Assembly (NCBI GenBank): GCA_947258885.1
Contig: CAMYKD010000026.1
Location: 1 to 48,626, forward strand
DNA: 48,626 bases
Direction: 5' to 3'
From: an uncultured Kiloniellales bacterium
GTDB lineage: Bacteria > Pseudomonadota > Alphaproteobacteria > Kiloniellales > JAKSDN01
Shown here: one piece after another, positions 17,802-48,626 of the stretch
Layout: every line of letters begins with the position of its first letter
Position numbering within the stretch: position 1 is the first letter of the stretch
Notes under the pieces: generated by a model
Databases searched by the model: none
What the model was told of the DNA's origin: nothing
Seen by the model: only the letters and a program-made list of their open reading frames with translations
Program-made: the position numbers and the translations under genes

Positions 17802-19644
<1,843 letters not shown>

Positions 19645-19672
19645 GCCGGCCGGGACAAAGCGGACTTGACGA

Positions 19673-19699
19673 GGGCCGGCCCGAGCGCCGGCCCCTTTT
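19673..19699 (+). terminator. Intrinsic terminator after acs
   Basis: The perfect 8-bp stem GGGCCGGC/GCCGGCCC with a 6-base loop is followed by CTTTT, 28 bp past the acs stop. Confidence 0.75.
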
Positions 19700-19775
19700 C
19701 CTCGCCGGGGCACGGCATGCGGCGGCGGCGGCACCCAGCCCCTAAGAGAGGGCGAACCAACTGCAAGGCGGTTCG

Positions 19776-44323: not shown

Positions 44324-45247
44324 ATGGAACCCATCATCGGCGGGGACGGCGGCGGCCCGCCGCCCGCGGACGTCATAAAGGACTCCAATACCGCCCGGTT
44401 CGCCCAGGACGTCATCGAGGCGTCGCTGAGCGCGCCGGTGATCGTCGACTTCTGGGCGCCCTGGTGCGGCCCCTGCAAGCAGCTTACGCCGTTGCTGGAG
44501 AAGACGGTCACGGCCGCGCGCGGCGCGGTCCGCCTGGTCAAGATCAACATCGACGAGAACCAAGACCTGGCGGCCCAGATGCGGGTTCAGTCGATTCCGA
44601 CGGTCTACGCCTTCTACCAGGGGCGCCCGGTCGATGCGTTTCAGGGCGCGCTGCCGGAAAGCCAGATCAAGAGCTTCATCGATCGCCTGACCCAGACCGC
44701 CGGCACGGCCGCGGGCGCCAGTCCGGTCGAGCAGGCGCTCGAGGAGGCCGAGGCCGCGTTGGAGGCCGGCGAGACCGGGGCGGCCTCCGCGCTGTTCGGC
44801 CAGGTGCTGCAGCACGAAGCGCAGAACGTCCGGGCCCTCGCGGGCACGCTCCGCTGCCTGCTCGCCACCGGCGACCACGCCGGCGCCAGGCGGACCTTCG
44901 ACGGCCTGTCGGAGGACCTGCGCAAGGATCCGGCGTTTACGCCGGTCGCCGCGGCGCTGGAGCTCGCCGAGGCCGGCGCCGGCGCCGGCGAGATTCCCGA
45001 TCTGATGGCGCGGGTCGCGGAAGACAACGACGACCACCAGGCGCGTTTCGATCTCGCCATGGCGCTCTACGCGGCCGACAAGTCCGAGGCGGCGGCGGAC
45101 GAGCTGCTGGAGATCATCCGCCGGGACCGGGCCTGGAACGACGACGGCGCGCGCAAGCAGCTGGTCAAGTTCTTCGAGGCCTGGGGCGCCACGAACCCCT
45201 TGACCCTCCAGGCCCGCAGGCGACTGTCGTCCCTGCTGTTTTCATGA
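44324..45247 (+). CDS. cnoX: Thioredoxin-TPR co-chaperone (CnoX/YbbN type)
   Basis: The 307-residue protein has an N-terminal thioredoxin domain (about 20-130) with an intact WCGPCK active site (Cys48 and Cys51) in VDFWAPWCGPCKQLTPLLEK. A TPR region follows (about 145-300; ALEEAEAALEAGETGAASAL, FGQVLQHEAQNVRALAGTLR). CnoX-type proteins hold unfolding clients for GroEL or DnaK; members with both Cys can also reduce clients. The start at ATG 44324 has AGAGGA upstream; the frame is open 69 bases further without a ribosome site. Its stop overlaps the next start (ATGA). Confidence 0.93.
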   Translation: MEPIIGGDGGGPPPADVIKDSNTARFAQDVIEASLSAPVIVDFWAPWCGPCKQLTPLLEKTVTAARGAVRLVKINIDENQDLAAQMRVQSIPTVYAFYQGRPVDAFQGALPESQIKSFIDRLTQTAGTAAGASPVEQALEEAEAALEAGETGAASALFGQVLQHEAQNVRALAGTLRCLLATGDHAGARRTFDGLSEDLRKDPAFTPVAAALELAEAGAGAGEIPDLMARVAEDNDDHQARFDLAMALYAADKSEAAADELLEIIRRDRAWNDDGARKQLVKFFEAWGATNPLTLQARRRLSSLLFS

Positions 45248-45900
45248 CCAGGTCCGCTTTCGATCCGGCCTTCGACGACCTGCCCGGGGCCCTGCCGGTA
45301 TTTCCCCTGGAGGGGGCCCTGCTGCTGCCCGGCGGGCGGCTGCCGCTCCGGATCTTCGAGGAGCGCTACCTCAACATGGTTCAGGATGTCCTGGCCGGCG
45401 ACCGGCTGATCGGCATGGTCCAGCCCTGCGAGGAGACCGAGGAGCAGGGCAGCGCCAGGATATACCGGACCGGCTGCGCGGGGCGCATCACGGCTTTCAA
45501 CGAAACCGACGAGGGGCATTTCCTGATCACCCTGTCCGGCCTGATCCGCTTCACCCTGGAGCGCGAGCTGCCGGTGCTCCGGGGCTATCGGCGCGTCGTG
45601 CCGGATTTCGGGCGCTTTCGCGGCGACCTGGACGAGGACGGCGGCTGGATCGACCGGGCCGGCCTGCTCGACGCGCTGAACGGCTATTTCGAGTCGAACG
45701 GCATAGAGGGCGACTGGGATGCCATCGAGGAGACGGCGGACGAGCAGCTCGTGACCTCGCTGGCCATGATCTGTCCCTTCGAGCCGCCGGAAAAGCAGGC
45801 GCTCCTGGAAGCGGCGACCTTGCCCGAGCGCGCCGCGACCATGACGACGATCCTGCAGATGTCGGCCCACGACAAGGACGGCGCCGCGCCACGGCATTGA
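45244..45900 (+). CDS. LON N-terminal substrate-binding domain protein
   Basis: The 218-residue protein consists of a Lon N-domain (PUA-like) without the ATPase or protease parts: LPVFPLEGALLLPGGRLPLR, IFEERYLNMVQDVLAGDRLI, GCAGRITAFNETDEGHFLIT and LSGLIRFTLERELPVLRGYR. Such proteins are conserved but poorly understood; a role in protein quality control is assumed. It is translationally coupled to the CnoX gene, which supports that idea. Confidence 0.92.
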   Translation: MTRSAFDPAFDDLPGALPVFPLEGALLLPGGRLPLRIFEERYLNMVQDVLAGDRLIGMVQPCEETEEQGSARIYRTGCAGRITAFNETDEGHFLITLSGLIRFTLERELPVLRGYRRVVPDFGRFRGDLDEDGGWIDRAGLLDALNGYFESNGIEGDWDAIEETADEQLVTSLAMICPFEPPEKQALLEAATLPERAATMTTILQMSAHDKDGAAPRH

Positions 45901-45936: not shown

Positions 45937-46125
45937 ATGACAGGTGGAAAATCGGGGGTCGACCCCAAGCTTCTCGAGATCCTGGTCTGCCCGGTCACCA
46001 AGGCGCCGCTCGAGTACGACGCCGAGGCCCAGGAGCTGATCAGCCGCCAGGCGGGGCTCGCCTACCCGATTCGCGACGGCATCCCGATCATGCTGGCCGA
46101 CGAAGCCCGGCCCCTGGAAGATTGA
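45937..46125 (+). CDS. Trm112-like zinc-ribbon protein (YcaR type)
   Basis: The 62-residue protein has the family pattern [17 protein letters not shown], then [20 protein letters not shown] and LADEARPL. The single visible Cys in LVCPVT means that the full zinc site of eukaryotic Trm112 is incomplete, as in many bacterial members. Homologues activate methyltransferases or act as small chaperones. It starts behind GGAAAAGGAGG and lies in a series with the Lon-domain and DUF971 genes. Confidence 0.9.
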
Positions 46126-46135
46126 GCGCCCGGTC

Positions 46136-46543
46136 ATGACGAGCGACGACGGCTTCGCCGCGGATCCGGGCGGCACCCGGCACTGGCCGACTGAAATCCG
46201 CTACCTGGCGGGCGAGAAGCGTCTCGAGGTCGAATTCGACAACGGCGCGCGGTTTTCCTATCCCGCGGAATACCTGCGGGTCGAAAGCCCCTCCGCCGAG
46301 GTCCAGGGCCACGGGCCGGGCCAGAAGCAACTCGTGACCGGCCGGCGCCATGTCGGCATCATGGAGATCGAGCCGGTCGGCAACTACGCGGTCAAGATCA
46401 AGTTCGACGACCTGCACGACACCGGGCTCTACTCCTGGAGCTATCTCTACCATCTGGGTGAGCGCCAGGAGGAGATCTGGGCGGCCTACCTGGCCGAGCT
46501 GGAGACCCGCGGCCTGGCGCGGGACCCCGCCGGCTCCGGCTGA
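46136..46543 (+). CDS. DUF971 (gamma-butyrobetaine hydroxylase N-terminal-like) protein
   Basis: The 135-residue protein is a single DUF971 domain: WPTEIRYLAGEKRLEVEFDN, FSYPAEYLRVESPSAEVQGH, VGIMEIEPVGNYAVKIKFDD and LHDTGLYSWSYLYHLG. This domain occurs alone in many proteobacteria, often near iron-sulphur assembly factors; its biochemical role is unsettled. It follows the Trm112-like gene by 10 bp, so the genes from cnoX to here likely form one operon. Confidence 0.93.
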   Translation: MTSDDGFAADPGGTRHWPTEIRYLAGEKRLEVEFDNGARFSYPAEYLRVESPSAEVQGHGPGQKQLVTGRRHVGIMEIEPVGNYAVKIKFDDLHDTGLYSWSYLYHLGERQEEIWAAYLAELETRGLARDPAGSG

Positions 46544-46655
46544 GTGAGCGCCTGGGAGTCGCGCCGGGGATACAGATTTTGTCGCATCCTCGTTGGACAG
46601 GACCGCGTCCTCTGGCACAGTATTCTCTCCGAGGCCGGTCCGGAGAGGTGTGTCC

Positions 46656-47906
46656 ATGCCGCGCGATAGCGAGCCGCCCGCCAAGCTCCCCGTCGCGGCC
46701 CTGATCGACACCGAACCGCACATCGACATGGTCGCGCTGCGCGGCTATCGGCTGGGGCGCGTGCGCGAGCAGCTCAGGCAGCGCGACTACGCCGGGGCCG
46801 TGCTCTACGATCCGATCAACATCCGCTACGCGACGGGCAGCCGCAACATGGCGGTCTGGACCCTGCACAACGCCGTGCGCTACTGCTTCGTCGCCACCGA
46901 GGGGCCGGTCGTGGTGTTCGACTTCCACAACTGCGAGCACCTGTCCGCCGGCCTGGAGACGGTCGACGAGGTACGGCCCGCCGTCGCTTGGTACTACTTC
47001 GGCGCCGGCGCGCGGTTCGAGGAGCGCGCCAAGACCTGGGCCGCCGAGATCGCCGACCTGGTGGCGGCCCACGGCGGCGGCAACCGGCGCCTGGCGCTGG
47101 ACCACTGCGATCCGGAGGGCGCCGCGGCGCTGGCGGCGCTCGGCATCGAGGTTCGGAACGGCCAGGAGGTCATGGAACTCGCCCGCGCGATCAAGTCGCC
47201 GGAGGAACTCGCCTGCATGGGCCAGTCGATCGCGGTCTGCGAGGCCGCCATGGCGCGCATGCGCGAGGCGCTCGAGCCCGGCATGACCGAGAACCAGCTC
47301 TGGGCGATCCTGAACCACGTCAACGCGGCCATGGGCGGCGAATGGATCGAGACCCGGCTGCTCGCCTCGGGCGCGCGGACCAACCCCTGGTTCCAGGAAT
47401 CCAGCGACCGCATCATTCGGCCCGGCGAGATGGTCTCCTTCGATACCGATATGATCGGGCCCTACGGCTATTGCGCGGACATCTCGCGCAGTTACTTCTG
47501 CGGCCCGGGGCGGCCGTCGGACGAGCAGCGGCGGCTCTACCGCCTGGCCTGGGAGCAGATCCATTTCAACATGGACCTGCTGAAGGCGGGCCTGAGCTTC
47601 AGGGAGCTGGCGGAGACGGCCTGGAAGATGCCCGAGAGCTGCCGGGCCAACCGCTACTCCGTGGTGATCCACGGCGTCGGCCTCTGCGACGAGTACCCGG
47701 CCTGCGTCTACCTGGAGGATTTCGAGACCAGCGGCTACGACGGCCGCCTGGAGGCCGGCATGACGGTCTGCGTCGAGAGCTTCATCGGCGAGACGGGCGG
47801 CCGCGAGGGGGTCAAGCTGGAGCAGCAGGTGCTGATCACCGAGACCGGCCTCGAGCTCCTCTCCACCTTCCCCTTCGAGGAGGATCTGCTCGGGCGCGAG
47901 CTGTAG
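46656..47906 (+). CDS. dddP: M24-fold protein, probable DMSP lyase DddP
   Basis: The 416-residue protein has a creatinase/aminopeptidase P fold. Sequence blocks match my memory of marine DddP: YDPINIRYATGSRNM, GGEWIETRLLASGARTNPWF, VSFDTDMIGPYGYCADISRS, IHGVGLCDEYP and EQQVLITETG. The six metal ligands are Asp263, Asp265, Asp275, His339, Glu374 and Glu389. Each is exactly 32 less than the published ligands of Ruegeria lacuscaerulensis DddP as I recall them (295, 297, 307, 371, 406, 421). Tyr334 and Asp345 correspond the same way to the reported catalytic Tyr366 and Asp377. DddP splits dimethylsulphoniopropionate into DMS and acrylate. Wider DddP-like M24 proteins may differ. The start follows GGAGAGG. 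It is probably a single gene. Confidence 0.75.
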   Translation: MPRDSEPPAKLPVAALIDTEPHIDMVALRGYRLGRVREQLRQRDYAGAVLYDPINIRYATGSRNMAVWTLHNAVRYCFVATEGPVVVFDFHNCEHLSAGLETVDEVRPAVAWYYFGAGARFEERAKTWAAEIADLVAAHGGGNRRLALDHCDPEGAAALAALGIEVRNGQEVMELARAIKSPEELACMGQSIAVCEAAMARMREALEPGMTENQLWAILNHVNAAMGGEWIETRLLASGARTNPWFQESSDRIIRPGEMVSFDTDMIGPYGYCADISRSYFCGPGRPSDEQRRLYRLAWEQIHFNMDLLKAGLSFRELAETAWKMPESCRANRYSVVIHGVGLCDEYPACVYLEDFETSGYDGRLEAGMTVCVESFIGETGGREGVKLEQQVLITETGLELLSTFPFEEDLLGREL

Positions 47907-47921: not shown

Positions 47922-48626
47922 CTACAGCGCCTCGCCGCGGATCAGGCGCGGCAGATCGCCGAGCAGGCCCATGGCGTGGCCCATGAACAGACGCTTCAGG
48001 GGCGGCAGGCGGTCGACCGCGGCGAGGCCCAGGTCACGGGCCAGGCGCAGCGGCGCCAAGTCGTTCGAGAACAGGCGGTTGAGGCCGTCGGTCGCGGCGA
48101 TCAGCATCAGGGTGTCGAGCCGGCGCCAGCGCTCGTAGCGCGCCAGCACGCCCGCGTCGCCGAGGTCGAGCCCGAGGCGCCGGGCGTCGACGACGACCTC
48201 GGCCAGGGCCGCCACGTCGCGCAGGCCGAGATTGAGGCCCTGGCCGGCGATCGGATGGATGGCGTGGGCCGCGTCGCCGATCAGCGCGAGGCGCCGGTCG
48301 ACGTAGCGCTCGGCATGCAGCAGCGACAGCGGATAGCTCCAGCGCCCGCCGATCGCCTCGAGCCGGCCCAGGCTGCTGCCGAAGCGCCGCGCGATCTCGG
48401 CCGCGAAGTCCTCGGCCTCGAGCGCCATCATGGCCGGCACCAGGTCGCGGCGTTCGGTCCAGACGATCGACGAGCGGTGCGTGCCGTCCTCGGCGTCGGC
48501 CATCGGCAGCATGGCGAAGGGGCCCGCGGGCAGGAAATGCTCGTGCGCCACGCCCTGGTGCGGCCGCTCGTGGGCCACGGTGCAGACGATGCCCGCCTGC
48601 GGGTAGCTCCACGTCGTGGTCCTTAT
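47922..48626 (-). CDS. UbiH/COQ6-family ubiquinone biosynthesis hydroxylase, 5' end outside the window
   Basis: The last 234 residues of an FAD-dependent monooxygenase that hydroxylates the ubiquinone ring. It runs off the right edge in frame (first visible codons give TWSYPQAGIVCTV, joining VAHERPHQGVAHEHFLPAGP and FAMLPM). The second FAD motif is LALIGDAAHAIHPIAGQGLN followed by LGLRDVAALAEVV. The N-terminal FAD GxGxxG motif must lie beyond position 48626. Which of UbiH, UbiF or UbiL it is cannot be decided. It is convergent with the M24 gene, stops 15 bp apart. Confidence 0.93.
   Translation of the reverse strand: MRTTTWSYPQAGIVCTVAHERPHQGVAHEHFLPAGPFAMLPMADAEDGTHRSSIVWTERRDLVPAMMALEAEDFAAEIARRFGSSLGRLEAIGGRWSYPLSLLHAERYVDRRLALIGDAAHAIHPIAGQGLNLGLRDVAALAEVVVDARRLGLDLGDAGVLARYERWRRLDTLMLIAATDGLNRLFSNDLAPLRLARDLGLAAVDRLPPLKRLFMGHAMGLLGDLPRLIRGEAL

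Follow-up and report, generated by a model that had tools for sequence, protein, structure and literature searches.

A DddP-like M24B-fold enzyme on a branch outside the known DddP clade in a Kiloniellales bacterium

The open reading frame at positions 46656-47906 of the window (the whole stretch of 48,626 nucleotides analysed here) encodes a protein that resembles the DMSP lyase DddP in sequence, active-site residues and predicted fold, and that groups outside the known DddP clade. In our preferred reading, to which we assign a probability of about 0.55, the protein is an active DddP-type M24B metal enzyme that catalyses an elimination from a small sulfonium or ammonium carboxylate. This reading is based on the predicted fold, the residues, the phylogeny, the synteny and the observation that paralogs lose W230 and D345 together; the elimination chemistry would carry over from DddP, and the onium-type substrate is suggested by the gene contexts of other groups of the family. 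Naming the protein DddP would be premature because it lies on a different branch of the family.

The frame is a real ORF of 416 amino acids on the forward strand. Its ATG at 46656 has the sequence GGAGAGG 7 nt ahead, and the start is kept in two genomes of the same genus. The Pfam M24 model (PF00557) matches the protein with 117.3 bits, above the cut-off. The nearest named record is from a Rhodospirillales MAG (93%), which bears out the earlier impression of a Rhodospirillales-like genome. The features of the locus are:

44324..45247, + strand: thioredoxin-TPR protein, in the same block as the genes that follow on this strand
45253..45900 (as searched; start codon not fixed), + strand: LON substrate-binding domain protein, same block
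45937..46125, + strand: Trm112-like gene, same block
46136..46543, + strand: stand-alone GBBH-like_N (DUF971) gene, upstream neighbour
46579..46655, + strand: leader, with a motif at 46579-46598 and a stretch at 46613-46648 that is invariant within the genus
46656..47906, + strand: DddP-like M24B-fold enzyme, 416 aa, identified by sequence search, alignment and predicted fold
47922..48626, - strand: FAD-binding monooxygenase, convergent downstream and cut by the window end; we take it to be UbiH-like

The leader motif reads TTGTCGC-N6-GTTRGAC, and visual inspection shows a similar motif in two further families of the order. The 36 nt at 46613-46648 are invariant in three same-genus genomes, and a predicted hairpin in the leader covers the likely ribosome-binding site. 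The motif has a single exact occurrence in its own genome. No regulon sharing it was found there; looser matches numbered 14 compared with 22 for the control.

The best solved relatives in a phmmer search were four DddP chain sequences (E values from 5.5e-98 to 9.9e-97), while the best M24 chain other than DddP reached 1.8e-15; a chance resemblance to DddP is therefore excluded. The solved DddPs are from Ruegeria lacuscaerulensis (4rzy, 4s00, 4s01) and Roseobacter denitrificans (4b28). In the alignment the protein is 42% identical to both chains, with which it shares the fold and the six metal ligands. The original prediction had six ligands and two catalytic residues at a constant offset of 32 from DddP, and all eight indeed match: D263, D265, D275, H339, E374 and E389 correspond to D295, D297, D307, H371, E406 and E421 of DddP, and Y334 and D345 to Y366 and D377. 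All of them lie in the C-terminal domain, to which this offset is confined; ahead of a gap of five residues the offset is about 27. Residue numbers and roles are those in PMC4108388, and the numbering is confirmed by the PDB titles of 4s00 (Y366A) and 4s01 (D377N). The long near-identical blocks that had been reported were also recovered within the overall 42%: GGEWIETRLLASG and HGVGLCDE are identical in this protein and in the DddP chains.

The equivalents of Tyr366, Asp377, Trp262 and Phe278 of DddP are all present. Both M24 histidines are exchanged, for D345 and probably F246. An exchange of these histidines for Asp and Phe is described for DddP in PMC5395565, and the alignment suggests that F246 is the Phe in question; this position holds Phe in 31 of the 37 rows (aligned sequences) of the DddP clade. 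DddP is also described there as binding the sulfonium with a tryptophan, for which Trp 68, 230 and 245 are candidates here; all three are kept in every row of the 24-row own group and of the 37-row DddP clade. With a 90% conservation rule only two positions separate these two sets. Position 76 is Tyr in the present protein and Ala in 36/37 rows of the DddP clade; position 128 is Trp here and Phe in the DddP clade.

Compared with the solved DddPs the protein has an N-terminus about 27 residues shorter, so that the loop-helix appendix (residues 10-50) is largely missing, and a deletion of five residues. The NCBIfam DddP model NF043017 gives 418.8 bits, below the equivalog cut-off of 600 bits, and the match starts at model position 50; the absent appendix probably accounts for part of the shortfall. 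Genome G236, presumably SAR116, likewise stays below 600 with 571.8 bits. In a class-wide search of 289 genomes, matches with E ≤1e-60 occurred in 61 genomes and matches above the NF043017 cut-off in 10.

The AlphaFold2 model was built from 30 rows. It has a mean pLDDT of 86.9 and a pTM of 0.86 and is weak at residues 1-19 and 66-71, the latter including W68 and H71. The top four Foldseek matches were DddP chains (E from about 4e-47 to 3e-46, TM 0.89), and VIA-align gave a Z of 46 for DddP as against 33.6 for the best peptidase. The predicted structure is an M24B pita-bread fold with a DddP-type match over the whole chain. A generic aminopeptidase P is rejected on the sequence, the fold and the histidine exchanges, in agreement with the original prediction; the fold, metal site and Tyr/Asp pair of DddP are kept.

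We analyzed the phylogenetic position of the protein in three trees. Two of them, a FastTree with 193 rows and one under the C20 mixture model with 96, recovered the DddP clade with 100% support and placed the protein outside of it. The clade contains the two solved DddPs, homologs from Oceanimonas, Psychrobacter and some Pseudomonas, and putative SAR116 rows, part of its rows being assigned to SAR116 by us; it has 36 rows in the FastTree and 37 in the conservation comparison, where a plasmid homolog was added. The named enzymes in the clade are only the two solved DddPs, the trees having been computed without the DddPs of fungi, O. doudoroffii and the scallop symbiont HWgs001; the clade also holds relatives of other tested enzymes. 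Three loci with a G+C content near 34%, considered because HWgs001 has 36%, belong to other named isolates. The 53-row tree supports the DddP rows with 100/99, the DddP rows plus four Mesorhizobium/Ahrensia-type rows with 100/98, and a wider set with two more rows with 98/94. The protein is outside all three sets; the deeper intermediate nodes (84/86 to 88/93) are not firm. Forcing the own group together with DddP was rejected (AU p = 4.3e-7), as was forcing the protein and one close relative together with DddP (AU p = 9.7e-5), the groups for both tests having been picked after the tree had been seen. For the sequences in the trees, membership in the verified DddP clade, the check proposed earlier, is thus contradicted.

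The own group comprises 24 rows at 99% in the FastTree and is no resolved clade in the C20 and 53-row trees. Tistlia-type orthologs (L060, L197 and L066) occupy the same syntenic place, with DUF971 upstream and a UbiH-like gene downstream, and stand on a different branch of the trees than the own group, which may reflect gene replacement or tree error. Homologs from Oceanimonas sp. CHS3-5 (629 bits) and Oceanisphaera (annotated dddP) are about 55% identical to the protein and have the same active-site residues; they belong, as the solved enzymes do, to the DddP clade, and the protein does not. The Mesorhizobium/Ahrensia group, 54-59% identical and again with the same active-site residues, is sister to DddP.

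The residue counts that follow describe a sample and not the family: the 80 named loci are the best 80 of 585 by likeness to the protein, and 60 further copies were hand-picked, leaning to divergent ones. Eighteen rows were left out of the 194-row counts, namely two copies from the own genome, 14 duplicates, L071, which is too short, and L004, whose contig is that of L052. A second match in L100, due to chance, was dropped before the trees were computed.

Asp345 is kept in 158/194 aligned rows and Tyr in 187/194, and the metal ligands hardly vary. This sample was partly chosen for divergent copies and includes a distant M24 protein of the own genome as well as one match due to chance. Most of the exceptions form groups with Gly, Val, or Met/Ile/Ala/Cys together with Gly or Asn at the Tyr/Asp pair. 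In the set of 199 rows Asp345 is replaced in 35, which belong to several paralog groups. W230 is kept in 161 of the 164 rows with Asp345 and in 1 of the 35 without it; of the 54 conserved columns, only that of Asp345 itself falls more sharply. Asp345 and W230 are therefore lost together; on the tree this link comes down to 5 changes and 3 independent pairs and with so few events is not significant. The protein studied here keeps the whole set, including Asp345 and W230. The residues argue for an active DddP-type site. They do not identify a DMSP lyase, since the equivalent of Asp377 is common in the wider family, including rows from betaine-catabolism clusters. Hence of the DddP identity proposed originally, the DddP-like sequence, the fold, the metal site and the Tyr/Asp pair stand, and the use of these residues as a mark of DMSP lyase activity is not supported.

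Gene contexts were counted in the 74 loci with at least 8 kb among the best 80 of 585. In the Mesorhizobium/Ahrensia group, MttB-like genes occur in 17/19 of these loci, DMGDH-like genes in 17/19 and BHMT in 16/19, a link that the protein studied here does not have. In Mesorhizobium L-8-3 the assignments as MTTB, DMGDH-type protein and BHMT are borne out by the family models. One Mesorhizobium locus (L107:3953-15238) has the DddP-like gene in a cluster with genes for an MTTB-family protein, a DMGDH-type protein and a betaine-homocysteine methyltransferase. The clusters of this group, the one next to DddP, are thus of a betaine-demethylation kind. Among the 16 DddP clade loci of the same sample none has MttB or BHMT, three have acuI, one has BCCT and five have Rieske-type genes. 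BCCT is found in 6/7 loci of the Pseudomonas/Oceanospirillaceae group (confirmed by family models in P. borbori), and 5 of 24 loci of no named group carry MttB. These neighbours of relatives, MttB-like, betaine-homocysteine, dimethylglycine-type and BCCT, all seen in other groups of the family, point to onium-carboxylate substrates.

Plasmid homologs of Sinorhizobium, Parasedimentitalea and Terrarubrum are near trimethylamine methyltransferase-family genes. The Sinorhizobium homolog has Gly for Asp; those of Parasedimentitalea and Terrarubrum keep Tyr and Asp, and enzymes with the intact pair therefore occur in betaine-type catabolism. The Sinorhizobium meliloti plasmid homolog, with Gly at the Asp377 position, is annotated as an Xaa-Pro peptidase and is flanked by a trimethylamine methyltransferase-family gene on one side and a glycine betaine ABC transporter on the other (L217:6320-14520). 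Two plasmid homologs, one of them annotated dddP, are near genes for an FAD oxidoreductase, a (2Fe-2S) protein, a further FAD oxidoreductase and RidA (L219:1221-4472 and L218:1-2266), a set that suggests amino-acid or opine oxidation and not DMSP. The literature searched, judged from listings, yielded nothing on DddP-like M24 enzymes in betaine clusters, and no assay of the Mesorhizobium/Ahrensia DddP-like enzymes was found in it.

At the locus itself, a DUF971 gene is upstream on the same strand, 105 to 1,307 bp off, in 20 of 25 loci of the own and Tistlia groups; it is missing upstream at L010, L042, L058, L198 and L200/L055. The FAD-binding monooxygenase is convergent downstream in 17/27 loci. 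These counts take one locus per duplicate pair (27), and two loci with less than 490 bp upstream were left out for DUF971 (25). Because of this synteny the gene looks like a vertically inherited part of a core locus. The spread of the gene, raised in the original prediction, finds no backing in a locus that is syntenic in most related loci, and a recent horizontal gain of dddP is rejected, the locus being syntenic across families of the order. Homologs with E ≤1e-40 are present in 48/58 genomes (own included), often in several copies. MttB, BHMT, BCCT, acuI and dmdA were searched for in the flanks of the own and Tistlia groups and were found in 0/8 loci.

The genome was also searched for genes of DMSP and acrylate metabolism. 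AcuI reaches 449.1 bits, above the curated cut-off of 440. It matches in 53/56 genomes of the order (own included), 28 of them above the cut-off, and also in genomes without a homolog of the protein, such as G029; being nearly universal, AcuI is a weak sign of DMSP use and was dropped as evidence for it. A propionate/acetate-CoA ligase-type ORF at 17802-19745 of the window, about 27 kb away, scores 503 bits against a PrpE cut-off of 827 and is presumably an acetyl-CoA synthetase. The genome furthermore has two BCCT transporter genes, six MttB-family genes and a DmdA-like gene that is cut by the contig start (369 bits, cut-off 410). Three of six near relatives of the latter are above the cut-off and the same-genus copies score 412 and 396; the gene is probably DmdA. 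In a same-family genome (L230, G003:C329) a DmdA above the cut-off and an AcuI homolog share a contig, at a distance of about 1.8 kb. The lineage may well be exposed to DMSP. No link of AcuI, BCCT or the putative DmdA to the locus was found in the own genome.

By analogy with DddP, the protein would be a soluble M24B-fold enzyme, probably homodimeric, with a binuclear metal site. The metal pair would grip the carboxylate of a small zwitterion, and aromatic residues (Y334 and tryptophans such as W230) would hold its positively charged sulfonium or ammonium group. D345 would take the alpha proton; the leaving group would be eliminated and an unsaturated acid such as acrylate left. DMSP may be what it acts on, alone or among other substrates.

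That the protein is a genuine DMSP lyase, with DMSP as the physiological substrate, DMS and acrylate as products and AcuI handling the acrylate, is possible and in our view doubtful. At the positions compared the predicted active site is as in DddP, and the AcuI, BCCT and DmdA-like genes of the genome would fit. Lyase activity moreover reaches far in the family: according to PMC4108388, a Fusarium DddP with 32% identity to a Roseobacter one enables E. coli to produce DMS, and PMC10989825 reports an active scallop-symbiont DddP on an independent branch, 55% identical to Oceanimonas doudoroffii DddP2. The activity of these two enzymes keeps the DMSP reading alive. Against it are the position outside the known clade, the 418.8 bits compared with 600, the absence of any linked DMSP or acrylate gene among those found, with AcuI uninformative, and the conserved core position, which is unusual for an accessory catabolic trait.

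Other relatives with the M24 fold act on small non-peptide substrates. Creatinase and ectoine hydrolase carry out hydrolysis and not elimination; they share the fold with Z values of 31 to 32 and only about 20% identity, and their catalytic residues presumably differ from those seen here. A hydrolase of a small amide or amidine, similar to these two, with a product that enters betaine or amino-acid catabolism, would agree with the common fold and with family members that adjoin methylated-amine catabolism genes. It is nevertheless unlikely: the M24 histidine is replaced by Asp at 345, sequence and fold are far nearer to DddP, and the locus has no methylated-amine neighbours. An ordinary Xaa-Pro peptidase or dipeptidase is very improbable in spite of the Pfam M24 match and the database entries that name several relatives 'Xaa-Pro peptidase family protein'. 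Both substrate-binding M24 histidines are replaced (Asp, Phe), in the sequence search the best peptidase chain trails by about 80 orders of magnitude, and according to PMC5395565 no activity on Val-Pro could be measured for RlDddP, which carries these exchanges too.

The active DddP-type enzyme that we favor bears on how dddP is counted. According to PMC7494906 and PMC13360808, no bacterial DMSP lyase gene is more abundant in surface seawater than dddP. The published inclusion rules range from E values up to 1e-50, with sequences that group with non-functional ones in a tree then discarded (PMC7494906), and E below 1e-70 (PMC5395565) to at least 68% identity to tested enzymes for amplicons (PMC6309047). 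With an E value of 5.5e-98, albeit obtained in another database, the protein would probably pass the E-value rules; it fails the 68% identity rule and belongs to a branch outside the known DddP clade. A tentative, wider idea is that DddP is one twig of a large and old family of M24-fold onium-carboxylate eliminases whose Asp-Trp-Tyr site predates DMSP use. The present protein could then be a core-genome, Rhodospirillales-type branch acting on another onium acid, e.g., beta-alanine betaine, to yield trimethylamine and acrylate. If this is true, metagenome surveys that define dddP loosely also count enzymes that release no DMS.
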